Shown: positions 15,972-27,032 of the stretch, in pieces | How the letters are laid out: every line of letters begins with the position of its first letter | Position numbering within the stretch: the stretch's first letter is position 1 | Origin: Cyanobacteria bacterium CYA | GTDB lineage: Bacteria; Planctomycetota; Phycisphaerae; Phycisphaerales; UBA1924 | Direction of reading: 5' to 3' | Length of the DNA: 64,000 bases | Assembly (NCBI GenBank): GCA_008363215.1 | Contig: RHKP01000011.1 | Span: 1 to 64,000 of the forward strand | Made by a program: the position numbers and the translations under genes | The notes under the pieces: model-generated | Told to the model about the DNA's origin: nothing | The model's database searches: none | Seen by the model: only the letters and a program-made list of their open reading frames with translations

Positions 15972-16039
15972 GTGCCCGGTGTGCCCGGCGCGCTCAACTG
16001 GCCGATGTTGAGTGAGACGGTCGAAGCGGAGCGTCGGTG

Positions 16040-17540
16040 ATGATGCTGGATCAACTCATTCAGGGGCTCGGCATCCGCGTGGTGCGCGGCGACGCCGGCG
16101 CTGCGCGCGTCAGCGACCTGACCGAGGACAGCCGCACCGCCATGCCCGGGTCGCTCTTTGTCGCCCGGCGCGGGCTTTCGAGCGACGGGCGGCGGTTCGT
16201 CGGCGAGGCCTGCGTGCTGGGCGCCAGCGCGGTGCTGAGCGATGACCCGGCGCTTCCGGTCCCCGGGAGCGTCGCGCTGTGCGCCTGCGACGACGTGGCG
16301 CTGACCACAGCCCGCCTGGCGGAGCGTTTCTACGGCAACCCCGCGACCAGCCTCGTGCTGGTCGGCGTGACGGGCACCAACGGCAAGTCGACGATCGCCC
16401 ACCTGGTCCACCGCATGCTCAACCGCTGCGGGGTGCGCTGCGGGCTGATCGGCACGGTGCAGATCGACGACGGGCGCGAGTTGGCCCCCGCTTCCATGAC
16501 CACGCCTCCGGCCCTCGAACTCAGCCGCACGCTGGCGACCATGGTCGAGGCCGGGTGCCGGGCGGCGGCGATGGAAGTCTCCAGCCATGCGCTTTCTCAG
16601 AAGCGGGCCGACGCCCTGTCATTCGACGTGGGCGTTTTCACGAATCTGACGCGCGACCACGCGGACTATCACCCTTCGGCCGAGCACTACCTCGACTCCA
16701 AGCGACGCCTGTTCGGACTGATCGAGCCCGGCGGACTGGGCATCGTCAACGCCGACGACCCGCACGCCGACCGCTTTGAGGCCGCCCGTCTGGCTCGCTG
16801 CTCGCTTGAGGGCAAGGGCGACTGGAGCGTCCAGGTGCGCTCGCACACGGTTGACGGGCTTGACCTGCACATCACCGGGCCCGATGCCGGTGCGCGATGC
16901 TCGGGCCAGTTGTTCGGCTCGTACAACGCCATGAACATGCTGGAGGCGTGGATCGCCGTGCGAGAGGTGCTGCTCCGGATCGACGGGCAGGCGCTGCTCC
17001 CTCGGCTCGAACAGGCGGCCGTTGGGCTCAAGGGCCCGCCCGGGCGGATCGAGCGCATCAGCCGTCCCGGCGACGACGTGTCGGTTTTCGTGGACTACGC
17101 CCACTCGCCCGATGCGCTGCAGAACGTGCTGGGGGCGGTGCGGGCGGTTGCGGGCGGGAGGCGTGTGTGTGTGGTGTTCGGCTGCGGTGGCGATCGCGAC
17201 CGCGGCGGACATGGCCGACCGCGTCATTGTCACCAGCGACAATCCGCGCCACGAAGCGCCCGGGCGCATCATCACAGAGATCATCGAGGGCATGACGTCC
17301 TCGGCGCGCGCACGGATCGAGGTTCACGTCGACCGGCGTGTCGCCATCGAGCGAGCCATCATCGAGGCGCCGCGGGGTGACATCATCGTCATCGCGGGCA
17401 AGGGGCACGAGCGCGTGCAGATCCTGCCTGACCCTTCGGGGGAGAGCGGGCTGATCGAGGTACCGTTCCTTGACGCCGACGTAGCCGGTGAGGCCCTGCG
17501 GGCGCGGCGCGGCAGAACGCCCGAGGCGGCCCGCGCATGA
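16040..17540 (+). pseudogene. murE: UDP-MurNAc-tripeptide ligase, frame disrupted at 17187-17206
   Basis: The first frame (ATG 16040, GGAG site 8 bases upstream) encodes normal MurE: the N-terminal domain, VTGTNGKSTIAHLVHRML (K near 116), AMEVSSHALSQKRADAL, NLTRDHADYHPS, VDYAHSPDALQNVLGAVR and VVFGCGGDRDR. It then diverges. The +1 frame resumes with ADRVIVTSDNPRHEAPGRIITEI, IIVIAGKGHE and runs to the TGA at 17538-17540, which overlaps murF by ATGA. The GKRPLM block normally between DRDRG and ADRV is missing: about 10 bases remain where the family needs about 39. MurE is essential in walled bacteria, so this is either a sequence error or a recent lesion. Apart from this the gene is complete. 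Confidence 0.9.
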
Positions 17541-18967
17541 GCTTCTGGAAGCCAGACACTCTCCGCGCGGTCGTCGCAGGCTCGTGGGTCTCGCGTCCGG
17601 GCGCGCGTACGCACGATCCGTTCGGTGTGACCATCGACTCGCGCAAGGCGCGTCCCGGGCAGGTTTTCGTCGCCCTGGCGGGAGAAAACACGGACGGACA
17701 CCGCTTCGTCGTCCAGGCGGCCCGCGCCGGGTGTGCGCTTGCGATCGTCGAACGCACGGATGTGGACCTGCCGCCCGACATCGGTGTGATCAAGGTCGAA
17801 AGCGCCCTTGAGGCACTTGGTCGGCTCGCGTCGGCCTACCGGCGCTCGGCCCCGTCGCTCCGCGTCGTCGCCGTTACCGGGAGTTGCGGCAAGACCACCA
17901 CCGTGCGGCTGATCGACGCGGTGCTGTCGCAGCGTCTGCGCGGCTCGGCGTCGATCAAGTCGTTCAACAACGCCATCGGCGTGCCGCTCACCCTGCTCAA
18001 CGCCCGCCCGTCCGACAACTACGTGGTCTGCGAGGTCGGCACGAATCACCCCGGGGAGATCGAGCCGCTGGCCCGGATGTGCGAGCCCGACGTGGCCGTC
18101 ATCACCAACATCGGGCGCGCTCACCTCGAAGGGCTTGGCGGGATCGAGGGCGTGGCGATGGAAAAGGCCTCGCTGCTCACGCACCTGCGTCCGTCCGGAC
18201 TGGCCTTCGTGCCGGCCGAATGCGCGCCATTGCGCCCGCATCTTCGCAGACTCGACCGGGAGCGGATCGTGACCATCGGCATAGGGCCCGAGGCCGACCT
18301 GCGTGTGACCGAGGTCACCAGGCAGGACGCGCGCGTGTGCTTCTCGCTCAACGATCGTGTGGAGTTTGAGATTCCGCTGCTGGGTGAGCACAACGCGCTC
18401 AACGCGGCCATCGCGGTAGGGGTGGGGCGGCGGCTGGGGTTGCGCGACGAGGAGGTGCGTGCGGGGCTGCGGAGCGTGCAGGGGGCCGAGATGCGCGGGC
18501 AACTGCTCGGCGTGGGGCCTGTGCAGGTGATCAACGACGCCTACAACGCCAACCCCGACTCGATGCTGGCCGGTCTCAAGACGCTGGCGGGCTGGACCGG
18601 GGCCCGACGGGTGGCGGTAGTGGGCGACATGCTCGAACTGGGCCAGACATCGCGCGAGGAACACCGCCTGCTCGGCGAGTGGCTCGGCGCTTCGGGGCGC
18701 ATCGACCTGGTCATTCTGGTCGGCGGGCTGGCGCGCGAGGCCTATGAACCGGCGCTGCGCGGGCTCGGGGGCGAGCGGGTGAGGCATTTCGACCGCCTCG
18801 ATGATCGCACAGGTGATGCCATGGCCCGCCTGATCGAACCGGGTGACGTGGTGCTGCTCAAGGCCTCGCGCCGCGTCGGGCTCGAACGCATGGTCACTGA
18901 ACTGGAGCGCCGCTTCGTTCCTGACATATCTTCGCCGGCGGGCGACCGGTCCTCGGCGCTGCACTGA
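17537..18967 (+). CDS. murF: UDP-MurNAc-tripeptide-D-Ala-D-Ala ligase
   Basis: 476 residues, starting at an ATG that overlaps the murE stop. Known role: ATP-dependent addition of D-Ala-D-Ala to the UDP-MurNAc peptide in the cytoplasm. Seen: FGVTIDSRKARPGQVFVAL, the P-loop VTGSCGKTTTVRL (K119), KSFNNAIGVPLTLLN, VCEVGTNHPGEIEPLARM, NIGRAHLEGLGG, VINDAYNANPDSMLAGL and VVGDMLELG. All Mur ligase landmarks are present. The P-loop is GSCGKTT rather than the usual GSxGKTT, with cysteine at the variable position. It is followed by mraY after 8 bases. Confidence 0.96.
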   Translation: MSFWKPDTLRAVVAGSWVSRPGARTHDPFGVTIDSRKARPGQVFVALAGENTDGHRFVVQAARAGCALAIVERTDVDLPPDIGVIKVESALEALGRLASAYRRSAPSLRVVAVTGSCGKTTTVRLIDAVLSQRLRGSASIKSFNNAIGVPLTLLNARPSDNYVVCEVGTNHPGEIEPLARMCEPDVAVITNIGRAHLEGLGGIEGVAMEKASLLTHLRPSGLAFVPAECAPLRPHLRRLDRERIVTIGIGPEADLRVTEVTRQDARVCFSLNDRVEFEIPLLGEHNALNAAIAVGVGRRLGLRDEEVRAGLRSVQGAEMRGQLLGVGPVQVINDAYNANPDSMLAGLKTLAGWTGARRVAVVGDMLELGQTSREEHRLLGEWLGASGRIDLVILVGGLAREAYEPALRGLGGERVRHFDRLDDRTGDAMARLIEPGDVVLLKASRRVGLERMVTELERRFVPDISSPAGDRSSALH

Positions 18968-18975
18968 GGTCTTGC

Positions 18976-20145
18976 ATGCTCTACCTGATTCACCAGATGC
19001 TGCGTGATTGGCTGTCCCGGCACGACGCCTACGCCATCTTCTCGCCGCTGGATGAAATCCAGTTCCGCGCCCTGGCGGCGGTGGGCGTCGCCTTTGCGCT
19101 GGTGCTGGCGTTCGGGCGACCGACCATCCGGCGGCTGATCCGCATGAAGATCGGGGACTCAGGTATCACCGACGCGGAGGCACTGCGCGAGACCGCCATT
19201 ACCAAGGCCAACACGCCCACTATGGGCGGCGTGCTTATCTGCGGGGCGATCGGACTATCGACGCTGTTGTTCGCCGACCTCCTGAACTTCTACGTGCAAC
19301 TCGGACTGGTCATCCTCGTCTGGCTCAGCGTGCTCGGCGGGTTTGACGACTGGCTGAAACTGACGGCCTCACGCCGCGGCGACGGGCGCCAAGGCCTGTA
19401 TGCGTGGGAGAAACTGGTCTTTCAACTCGGCATCGCCGTGCTCGCCGGCGTGTTTATCTACCGGCAGGGCAACACCGAATCGGCCCGGGATGTCGCCCAC
19501 GTGCTCAATCTCCCGTTCCAGAAGACTTATGTCTCCCTGATCGGCGGGCTGTCGGAAGGTCTGATCTTTCTGCCGATGGGCGCCTTTGTGCTCATAGCCA
19601 CGCTGATGATCGCCGGAGTTTCCAACGCAGCCAACATCACCGACGGGATGGACGGGCTGGCGACGGGCATCAGCGGCATTGTCTCGCTCTCACTGCTGCT
19701 TCTGGCGCTGATCGCCGGCACGGAGCCTTGGGCTCACTACCTGCTGGTGCCCAACGTGGTGGGCTCCGACGAACTGGCGGTGCTCGCGGGAGCGATGGCC
19801 GGAGCCTGCCTGGGCTTCCTGTGGTGGAACTGCGCGCCCGCCATGGTCTTCATGGGCGACACCGGGTCGCTGGCGCTGGGCGGTTTGATCGGGTACCTGG
19901 CGGTGGTGCTTCGGCAGGAAGTTGTCGCGCTGATTCTGTGCGGTGTTTTTTTGGTGGAAATCGGCTCGGTGATACTGCAAGTGGGGTACTTCAAACTGAC
20001 CGGGGGCAAACGCATCTTCCGCTGCGCCCCATTCCATCACCACCTGCACCTGGGAGGCTGGGCCGAGCAGCAGGTGGTCGCTCGCCTGTGGATCGTCTCC
20101 ATCCTGCTGGCGGTGATCGGGCTGGCCAGCATCAAGGTGCGTTAG
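18976..20145 (+). CDS. mraY: Phospho-N-acetylmuramoyl-pentapeptide transferase
   Basis: 389 residues with about ten membrane helices. Known role: transfers phospho-MurNAc-pentapeptide to undecaprenyl phosphate, giving lipid I at the inner membrane. Seen: ITKANTPTMGGVLI, the catalytic VLGGFDDWLKL (D124-D125), NAANITDGMDGLATG, WNCAPAMVFMGDTGSLALGG, and RCAPFHHHLHLGGWAEQQVVARLW. In many bacteria murD, ftsW and murG follow; here a kinase and an FHA protein follow instead. Confidence 0.97.
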   Translation: MLYLIHQMLRDWLSRHDAYAIFSPLDEIQFRALAAVGVAFALVLAFGRPTIRRLIRMKIGDSGITDAEALRETAITKANTPTMGGVLICGAIGLSTLLFADLLNFYVQLGLVILVWLSVLGGFDDWLKLTASRRGDGRQGLYAWEKLVFQLGIAVLAGVFIYRQGNTESARDVAHVLNLPFQKTYVSLIGGLSEGLIFLPMGAFVLIATLMIAGVSNAANITDGMDGLATGISGIVSLSLLLLALIAGTEPWAHYLLVPNVVGSDELAVLAGAMAGACLGFLWWNCAPAMVFMGDTGSLALGGLIGYLAVVLRQEVVALILCGVFLVEIGSVILQVGYFKLTGGKRIFRCAPFHHHLHLGGWAEQQVVARLWIVSILLAVIGLASIKVR

Positions 20146-23361: not shown

Positions 23362-23609
23362 CAGGCGCCCCGCGGGGTGGGCCCGGATCGATCGACGCTC
23401 CGAGCCGATGCAGCGGTGGCTCGTATCGCTGAATCGTGCTCCTCCGACTTGCCGAGCGCCGTCTGGTTCCCTCCATATTCTGCTCGCATCGGGGGTTGAC
23501 CATGCCCCCCGGCGCCCGGATGAAGGAGATCCCCCTCACCCCGGCTCAGCGATGGTGGCGGTATGATGGCGAGCACTCCAGCCGCCGGTCTGCGAGAAAA
23601 GGGGGAATC

Positions 23610-24206
23610 ATGAAGCGTCAACATCGATTGCTCGCCGCTGCGCCGCTCGCACTGGCGCTGATCTTCGGCGCGGGTCTTGCGGGGATGCCCGCGCTCCAGC
23701 CGGAGGATTCGGCCCACGAGATGCCCATGCTGCCGCCGCCCGGCGAGCAGCATGAGTGGCTGCAGCAAATGGTGGGCACCTGGAGCATCGAATCCAAAAT
23801 GACGCCTCCGGGCCAGGATCCGATCAAGTGCACCGGGACCGAAACCGTGCGATCGCTCGGCGGGCGCTGGACCATCGGCGAACTGTCCATCGAGATCCCC
23901 GGCATGGGTGCGATGCGCGCGGTGATCACGCTTGGCTACGACCCGCAGGCCGGCAGGTACCAGGGCACCTGGGTCGATTCGATCACCGATCACATGTGGG
24001 TGTACGACGGCACGCTCGACCCGACCGGCAAGATCCTCACGCTGGAAGCCGACGGGCCGAACATGATGGACCCCGCGGGCGGCATGGCCAGGTATCGCGA
24101 CGTGATCGAGATCAGGAGCGAGAGTCACTACACCCTGACCTCCTACACCTGCGTTGATGGCAAGTGGGTGCAGTTCGGCTCGGCGAACTATCGCCGACAG
24201 AAGTGA
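23610..24206 (+). CDS. Exported DUF1579 family protein
   Basis: 198 residues from ATG 23610, with GGGGG seven bases upstream and a TATGAT hexamer at 23562-23567. The signal peptide is MKRQHRLLAAAPLALALIFGAGLAG. The body holds HEWLQQMVGTWSIESKM, GTETVRSLGGRWTIGELSI, LGYDPQAGRYQGTWVDS and YDGTLDPTGKILTLEADGPNM, the pattern of DUF1579, a lipocalin-like beta-barrel family. Ligand and role are unknown. Stands alone. Confidence 0.85.
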   Translation: MKRQHRLLAAAPLALALIFGAGLAGMPALQPEDSAHEMPMLPPPGEQHEWLQQMVGTWSIESKMTPPGQDPIKCTGTETVRSLGGRWTIGELSIEIPGMGAMRAVITLGYDPQAGRYQGTWVDSITDHMWVYDGTLDPTGKILTLEADGPNMMDPAGGMARYRDVIEIRSESHYTLTSYTCVDGKWVQFGSANYRRQK

Positions 24207-24411
24207 TCTTCAAGTGGTGTGTGCTCCGGGCCGGCCGGTGCGCTTTCGTGCATGACGCGTCAATGGGCCCGGCCGCGAAGGATCGGACTGCACCTGGGCT
24301 ATCAGTGGCACGGGCTTGCCGGCCTGTGAATCGATCGCGGCCGCGGTTGTCCGGACGGCTGCTCGTCGGCTCACGCCGCGCATGTACGCCCCCGGCGAGC
24401 CGACCGACACA

Positions 24412-25443
24412 TCACACGAGGCGGGCGATGCGCCGTCCGGCTTCCTCGACATCGGCGCGCGTCACACCCAGATGGCACACGGCCCGGATGCGCGTCGGGC
24501 TTTCCGCGAGCATCCGCACGCCGGCCGCTTCCAACTTCTCGCACAGCGCCGGGGCGGTGCCGATTCCGGGTTCCACGTCGAAGTACACCATGTTGGTGTC
24601 GACGGCGCCCGCGTCGCAGCACAGGCCCGTGATGCCGCTGAGGTGACGCGCCAGCAACTGCGCGTGGGCGTGATCGTCGGCCAGGCGCTCGTACTGGTGT
24701 TCGAGCGCGTAGAGCGCTGCGCCGGCCAGCAGGCCCGACTGGCGCATTGACCCGCCGAGCATCTTGCGGAAACGCCGGGCCCGCACGATGGTGCCCGCAT
24801 CGCCGGCCAGTGCGCTACCGGCCGGGCAGCCCAGCCCCTTGCTGAAGCAGCAACTGACTGTGTCCGCGTGGGCCGCAAGTTTCGAGGGTGCGACATTCAT
24901 CGCCACGGCCGCGTTCCAGAGCCGCGCCCCGTCCATGTGCACGCGCAAGCCGAGTCCGTGGGCGAACTGGTCGATCGCGCGCAGCGCCTCGAGCGGCCAG
25001 ATGGCTCCGCCGCCGCGGTTCATGGTGTTCTCTATTGACACCAGCCGCGTGCGGGGGAAGTGGTGGTCGCTGTGGCGCACCAGCGGGCGGGCGTCATCGG
25101 GCGAAAAGATGCCGCGATTTCCTGGGGCGAAGCGGATCGAGCACCCGGCCACGGCCGCGTACCCGCCGCCCTCGTAGTGCTGAATGTGCGAGTCGGGGTG
25201 ACAGATGATCTCATCGCCCGGCTCGGTCTGAGAGCGAATGGCCAGCAGGTTGGCCATGGTGCCGGAGGGCACGAACACGGCCGACTCTTTGCCGAGCAGA
25301 TCGGCCACGTGCTGCTCGAGCCGCTTGACCGTCGGCTCATCGCCCAGCGTGTCGTCGCCGAGGGGAGCGTTCATCATGGCGCGGCGCATGCCCTCGGTGG
25401 GTTGCGTGACGGTGTCGGAGCGGAGATCGATGACGGTGGGCAT
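24412..25443 (-). CDS. ltaE: Low-specificity L-threonine aldolase
   Basis: 343 residues. Known role: PLP-dependent cleavage of L-threonine or allo-threonine to glycine and acetaldehyde. Seen: IDLRSDTVTQPTEGMRRAMMNAPLGDDTLGDEPTV at the N-terminus, VFVPSGTMANLLAI, ENTMNRGGGAIWPLE, VHMDGARLWNAAVAM, and SCCFSKGLGCPAGSAL with the PLP lysine near 202. Full length. With kbl it gives the host two routes from threonine to glycine. The genes on either side are unrelated. Confidence 0.94.
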   Translation of the reverse strand: MPTVIDLRSDTVTQPTEGMRRAMMNAPLGDDTLGDEPTVKRLEQHVADLLGKESAVFVPSGTMANLLAIRSQTEPGDEIICHPDSHIQHYEGGGYAAVAGCSIRFAPGNRGIFSPDDARPLVRHSDHHFPRTRLVSIENTMNRGGGAIWPLEALRAIDQFAHGLGLRVHMDGARLWNAAVAMNVAPSKLAAHADTVSCCFSKGLGCPAGSALAGDAGTIVRARRFRKMLGGSMRQSGLLAGAALYALEHQYERLADDHAHAQLLARHLSGITGLCCDAGAVDTNMVYFDVEPGIGTAPALCEKLEAAGVRMLAESPTRIRAVCHLGVTRADVEEAGRRIARLV

Positions 25444-25543: not shown

Positions 25544-26797
25544 TTACGGGCAGCCTGCCGCGAACAGGTTCAGGTAGATCTGAACGTCGAAGAAGTTGTA
25601 CTGTCCGTCGCTGTTCATGTCGGCCGAGGCGTTGAGCGCCGACCAGTTGTTGAGGAAGTGCTGCACGTCGAAGAAGTTGAGTTGCCCGTCGCCGTTGCGG
25701 TCGGCGATGCAGGGTCCGCTTTCACACGCGTCGGGCTGGCTATTACCGTTGTTGTCAGCGCAGGTGGTGCCGTGTCCGGCGTAGGTGCCGCCGGCGCCGG
25801 TGCAGTCGGCCTCGGGCAGCACCAGGCAGAAGCCCGTCGGGAAGCAGCAGGCGCCCGTCGGGATCGGGCAGTCAGCCTCCGAGCAGTCGACCCCGTCACC
25901 CTGGTACGTCCCGCCGACCGCGACGCAGTTGTCGATGAACATCAGTTCGCACGTGCCGTCGGGCAGGCAGCAGGCGCCGAAGCCCTCAACGCAGTCAAGG
26001 CTCGACCACGTAGCGGCCAGCGCCCAGTCGCCCGTCGGACGGCACAGGAGGTCGAGTTGCGAAAACGTGTGCCATCCCGCCGGGCAGGCGAAGGGGCAGT
26101 TCATCGCGTACAGCCAGTTGGCGGTGCTGGCGCCCAGCCCGTCGCGATCCGTGGCCGGGAACGCGTTGCGGTTCGACGGCGGCGTGGAGCATGCCCCGCT
26201 CTGCGAGTTGTGATTGTCGATGCGGAAGCCGATCGTGAACTTGTTCGAGCCATTGGCGTTGGTGATGAAAATCTGCTCCGGGTCACCCGGATCCACCGAG
26301 ACTTCGATCAGTGTGCCATTGGTGCCCGGCGGCATGACCAGATGCGGAAGCACCAGGCCATCGGAGGAGTACTCGGCCACCAGTGTGCCGCTGGTCGGCG
26401 TGCCTTCCCATACCAAGACGCTCCACTCCGTCGTCGTCTGCACCACGGCGTTGAGCGTGACGAACAGACACTTCATCGTCTCGATCTTGATCGGGAAGGC
26501 CGATGCCGGCAGGGTGTATGTGGCCGCGGCGATTTCGTTCTCGACAAAGCCCGCCTGAGCCGTCCATTGAGTGGAACTGAAAGTAGGGTCGGTGTGCGAG
26601 GCGTCGTTGACGCACCCGCGCGGGCCGAAACCCCGGAAGTCGGCGTCGTGGATGATCTGTCCGGCGGTGCTGACGCGGAGCACATCAAACGAGTCCAGAT
26701 CGGCGGGGATGGGCTTTGCGCGCGGCCCCTGGGGTTCGACATGGCCCAGAGCCAGTGAAGCGGACAGGATCAGGGGAAGGCACGACCAGAACGACAT
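25544..26797 (-). CDS. Secreted protein with cysteine-rich repeats and dockerin-like tail
   Basis: 417 residues from ATG 26797 with a GGAGAG site. Signal peptide MSFWSCLPLILSASLALG. Residues about 20-270 form a domain of unknown type (SFDVLRVSTAG...). Two copies of a short cysteine module follow (GACCLPDGTCEL... and GACCFPTGFCLV..., each ending in a GGTYxGxGxxC segment), then a tail with two EF-hand-like repeats: DRNGDGQLNFFDVQHFLNNW and DMNSDGQYNFFDVQIYLNLF, ending AAGCP. This dockerin-like tail is frequent on exported Phycisphaerae proteins. Calcium binding is expected from the D-x-N-x-D-G-Q pattern. Confidence 0.82.
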   Translation of the reverse strand: MSFWSCLPLILSASLALGHVEPQGPRAKPIPADLDSFDVLRVSTAGQIIHDADFRGFGPRGCVNDASHTDPTFSSTQWTAQAGFVENEIAAATYTLPASAFPIKIETMKCLFVTLNAVVQTTTEWSVLVWEGTPTSGTLVAEYSSDGLVLPHLVMPPGTNGTLIEVSVDPGDPEQIFITNANGSNKFTIGFRIDNHNSQSGACSTPPSNRNAFPATDRDGLGASTANWLYAMNCPFACPAGWHTFSQLDLLCRPTGDWALAATWSSLDCVEGFGACCLPDGTCELMFIDNCVAVGGTYQGDGVDCSEADCPIPTGACCFPTGFCLVLPEADCTGAGGTYAGHGTTCADNNGNSQPDACESGPCIADRNGDGQLNFFDVQHFLNNWSALNASADMNSDGQYNFFDVQIYLNLFAAGCP

Positions 26798-27032
26798 GGT
26801 TTCTCTCCAGAACCTCAAGACATGCAAAACACCGGCTTGGCGCAGAATAGCAGGCCGGGCCTGGAACGCATACCCCGACCCCGGTGATTGGGACTTCCTG
26901 GAACGATCCGCAGCCCAGGCAGGTCCGGATTCACGAAAGTGCAGACTGGGTGACGACTTGCGCGATGCGATCACCCGTCCGATAGCCGGAGACAACTTTC
27001 GGCGGTACGGTTGCGTGAGGCGATTGCCCGGC

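Follow-up and report, generated by a model that had tools for sequence, protein, structure and literature searches.

A 29-nucleotide deletion breaks the single murE gene of a draft Phycisphaerales genome

The known MurE proteins (TIGR01085; solved structures 1e8c, 7b53 and 2wtz), which are UDP-N-acetylmuramoyl-L-alanyl-D-glutamate ligases, have in common with the gene described here three Mur ligase domains, a GTNGKS ATP loop and a GCGGDRD motif. The likeness extends to location, since the present murE adjoins murF and mraY. It has been reported that none of the genes murABCDEFGJ is essential in the planctomycete Planctopirus limnophila (PMC10632474).

The window, that is the whole stretch of DNA that was analysed, comprises 64,000 nucleotides (positions 1–64000 of contig C5) of a draft Phycisphaerales genome of 3.57 Mb in 44 contigs, which is 94.9% complete. 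Its gene order is murA, queA-like, murE, murF and mraY, the first two having been named by reading their translations. A genus mate (G001) was the main reference for nucleotide and amino acid comparisons. Among named relatives the closest is Phycisphaerales bacterium PLA8 (JAHDXL010000006.1), a metagenome-assembled genome to which the 5' part of MurE has 86% amino acid identity.

The murE gene is divided between two reading frames (Table 1). The 5' part matches TIGR01085 at nucleotides 16103–17206 (profile positions 2–373 of 472; 317.9 bits) and by itself exceeds the curated cut-off of 257.3. It contains PF01225, PF08245 and the first 53 positions of PF02875, and shows 86% amino acid identity to the G001 homolog. 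MurE similarity in this frame ends at 17206 and is regained in the +1 frame at 17199–17208. The 3' part matches TIGR01085 positions 381–456 (nucleotides 17199–17432; 78.7 bits) and PF02875 positions 69–127, with 84% amino acid identity to G001. PF02875 is split between the two frames (1–53, 69–127), and a single open frame with the complete C-terminal domain was not found. In the out-of-frame tail of the 5' part, the differences from G001 fall mainly at the first codon position of the tail's own frame (19, 6 and 5 at the three positions).

Table 1. Features of the murE region (window coordinates)
Feature	Position	Strand	Remarks
murE, broken	16040–17540	+	readable in the first frame as far as about 17206 and in the +1 frame between about 17199 and the stop (17540)
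murE 5' part, original frame	16040–17206	+	N-terminal, middle and start of C-terminal Mur ligase domain, ending GCGGDRDRG
16-mer GCGATCGCGACCGCGG	17190–17205	+	part of the GDRDR side alone; no repeat unit
likeliest deletion junction, position ambiguous	17199–17206	+	bases compatible with the MurE profile on both sides
murE 3' part, +1 frame to original stop	17199–17540	+	second half of C-terminal domain
out-of-frame tail of murE 5' part, premature stop	17207–17380	+	ORF 16037–17380
murF, intact neighbour	17537–18967	+	TIGR01143, 359.7 bits
mraY, intact neighbour	18976–20145	+	TIGR00445, 287.8 bits

Alignment with G001 by BLASTN over 16911–17700 gave 81% identity, with gaps totalling 29 nucleotides, all at the site of the lesion. 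In the 43 relatives whose version of it is gapless, the block bounded by GCGGDR and TSDNPR has 33 codons (99 nt); here it measures 70 nt, so that exactly 29 nt are missing. An earlier note on this DNA, which had suggested that murE lost some 29 bases including a KRPLM-type block, with a +1 shift, is borne out by both comparisons. It had also called for comparison with the murE of relatives; the gap is present against all 43, and no relative with a readable block has the shortened motif. The missing 29 nt include the conserved KRPxM segment, which in the C-terminal Mur ligase domain falls after PF02875 position 53 and before position 69. About ten codons are gone, and among them are a Lys, an Arg and a Met invariant in 43 of 43 relatives. 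The lesion is a genuine feature of the assembled sequence. Because invariant residues are missing, the gene as written is predicted to be incapable of encoding a working MurE ligase, the enzyme that adds residue three of the stem peptide.

An intact murE elsewhere in the genome, which the same note had named as part of what would count against it, was not found: a profile search of the 94.9%-complete assembly detected no second copy, the other Mur-like hits being MurF, MurC, MurD and a further Mur-ligase-like gene on contig C1. Of the other genes tested for the stem peptide and for lipids I and II, MurC, MurD, MurF and MraY exceed their cut-offs and a MurG-like gene is open; the curated MurG cut-off was reached in none of five genomes compared, and the low score is not peculiar to the present genome. 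Of 60 further genomes drawn from the same genus, family and order, 58 carry murE over the TIGR01085 cut-off. Two order-mates from one related family, G040 and G060 (99% and 91% complete), have murC and murD and no murE, murF or mraY over the cut-off; G060 also lacks a murG match, and G063, of the same genus as G040, has murE. In these two genomes the murE-murF-mraY block is either missing from the assemblies or lost.

In the +1 frame the 3' piece differs from G001 at 11, 8 and 35 first, second and third codon positions over 110 codons, and the 5' piece at 38, 23 and 117 over 380 codons. By this pattern the 3' piece still shows codon-level constraint, with no sign of decay, and the break is thus either recent or absent from the living population. 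No other broken conserved gene was found among about 32 orthologous ORFs compared with G001 over about 49 kb, and the assembly is therefore not error-prone in general; the remaining apparent frame changes are found before or at gene starts, or where an ORF overlaps its neighbour, and a generally poor assembly was rejected as an explanation.

The same comparison gave some observations on the remainder of the window. Synteny with the murE contig of G001 stops near nucleotide 23363, and the 24.4–49.4 kb portion compared matches, in inverted orientation, G001 contig C4, which places a rearrangement or contig join near 23.4–24.4 kb (about 23363–24415). On the minus strand, the C-terminus of the ORF ending at 25544 (25544–25715) has a roughly 55-residue module that contains two EF-hand-like repeats (DRNGDGQLNFFDVQ... 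and DMNSDGQYNFFDVQ...) and resembles the dockerin-type modules of planctomycetes; G001 has similar DNA at more than 25 sites, and the assignment is putative. Upstream of the probable ATG of this dockerin-like ORF, the DNA at 26800–26995 (minus strand) is well conserved with G001, though not in frame, and may be a conserved leader or regulatory region.

To place the junction, every break point was rated by the fit of both sides to the relatives' column frequencies. The scores form a plateau of 53.7–57.1 across the interval given in Table 1, with values of about 51.5 just outside it and about 41 at 17189. The heptamer CCGCGGC fits either side, and the scores are compatible with 0 to about 7 shared nucleotides. 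Random 29-nt deletions in the region would share at least 5 nt in 0.9% of cases, a figure which, with the shared length bounded only at 0 to about 7 nt, is not evidence of slippage. A search of plasmids, a viral collection and a genome collection found no intact allele of the same species, the closest being that of PLA8 (86% at the amino acid level). An imperfect palindrome around 17193 was considered as a special hairpin and is unexceptional (7 such sites in the window; 4–13 in simulated sequence), as is the octamer GCGATCGC, seen 10 times with 8–11 expected. A literature search on slippage returned nothing helpful for bacteria.

The earlier note had gone further and supposed that the intact gene held GCGATCGCGACCGCGG twice, one copy and the spacer having been lost by slippage or by collapse in assembly. 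The 16-mer lies where it was placed. In the 5' frame, with codons counted from 16040, it gives ..GDRDRG; in the +1 frame, which happens to be open throughout it, it gives AIATA. The arithmetic agrees with both the 29-nt length and the frame. Both peptides were said to belong in MurE. This holds for GDRDR, whose residues are found in 42–43 of the 43 relatives (31 for the last Arg), but AIATA fits only where the 16-mer ends. The putative second copy would occupy block columns 13–17, at which the relatives have Met (43/43), Gly or Ala (43/43), mostly Ala, Arg or Lys, then Val, Ala or Ile (43/43), and Ala (40/43); Thr in the fourth of these columns occurs in 0 of 43. At the nucleotide level, the 16-mer matches the left site in relatives at 11.5 of 16 positions and the supposed right-copy site at a mean of 6.5 (best 11; background 5.0, 95th percentile 9), and the two sites within the same relative agree at 5.1 of 16 on average and at most 8. 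The relatives thus lack the repeat, and their invariant Met and Gly/Ala columns contradict a second copy. "AIATA" is for the most part an out-of-frame reading of the GDRDR bases. With the right copy contradicted by the relatives, chance is the best account of why the +1 frame is open ahead of the junction: the DNA is GC-rich, and out-of-frame ORFs are common in the window, many appearing in the ORF list. Collapse of a 16-nt direct repeat is accordingly very improbable, while the slippage part of the proposal may be retained with no more than about 7 nt shared. Sixteen nucleotides is also shorter than the k-mers usual in assembly, and a repeat of about 7 nt is far shorter still and would not normally collapse a de Bruijn assembly. 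Repeat-driven assembly collapse of murE is for this reason unlikely, and slippage, a minority variant, some other error or a genuine deletion fit better.

The lesion is an ordinary small deletion or an assembly-level error. As assembled, the genome's only murE carries a single 29-nt deletion that removes the KRPxM stretch and shifts the frame; its breakpoint lies most likely at 17199–17206, and its ends may have shared at most about 7 nt (CCGCGGC). Of its possible origins, an error or minority variant captured in the assembly, for example through slippage in the template or library at this GC-rich spot, is the likeliest. We infer this over a mutation that has become fixed in living cells at odds of about 60 to 40. 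In its favour are the exact 29-nt gap against relatives, the single copy, the presence of murE in 58 of 60 genomes, the open state of the other pathway genes tested, the constraint on the 3' piece and the position of the lesion as the sole break among about 32 genes. Against it, an assembly generally prone to error would be expected to show further frame breaks, of which there are none in the genes compared, and a loss of 29 nt is not a typical sequencing error.

The main alternative is that the deletion is genuine, recent and fixed in the lineage. In that case murE would be a recently formed pseudogene, its loss tolerated because planctomycetes can dispense with genes for peptidoglycan precursors. 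It is the only lesion in the roughly 49 kb compared, order-mates G040 and G060 are without murE, murF and mraY over the cut-off, and real loss could be survivable given that the P. limnophila mur genes, murE included, are reported non-essential (PMC10632474). That organism, however, belongs to another class (Planctomycetia), and the rest of the pathway tested here is open and conserved, the 3' piece is without decay and nearly all the other genomes searched keep the gene; we regard a fixed deletion as possible rather than probable. The further step, that a very recent natural knockout of murE, with the other mur genes tested intact, marks early peptidoglycan loss or dispensable synthesis in the class, is doubtful. 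Function, whether by a programmed +1 frameshift or with MurE made in two pieces, can scarcely be entertained: MurE similarity is retained in both pieces, but about ten codons, including the invariant Lys, Arg and Met, are absent however the frames are joined, no slippery motif was recognised by eye at the junction, and no relative whose block could be read has the same break. Programmed frameshifting calls for an arrangement conserved among relatives and for a shift that restores the full domain; neither is seen here.

An error or minority variant in the assembly, the preferred reading, makes the locus mainly a matter of quality control, since automatic annotation would call murE absent or truncated and might suggest a missing step in peptidoglycan synthesis. 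Were the deletion real, it would be a natural test in the Phycisphaerae of the dispensability of murE reported for P. limnophila.

Unlike the known MurE genes, the present one has its frame broken after GCGGDRDRG and its KRPxM segment gone. It resembles the frameshifted conserved genes of draft and metagenome-assembled genomes in having a single disruption in a gene otherwise constrained and intact in relatives, and differs in that 29 nt are involved instead of the one-base indel typical of long-read errors. With microhomology deletions, which arise by slippage between short direct repeats, it has in common a small deletion in GC-rich coding DNA and an ambiguous junction that would allow up to about 7 shared nucleotides, although the length shared here is given only as an upper bound.
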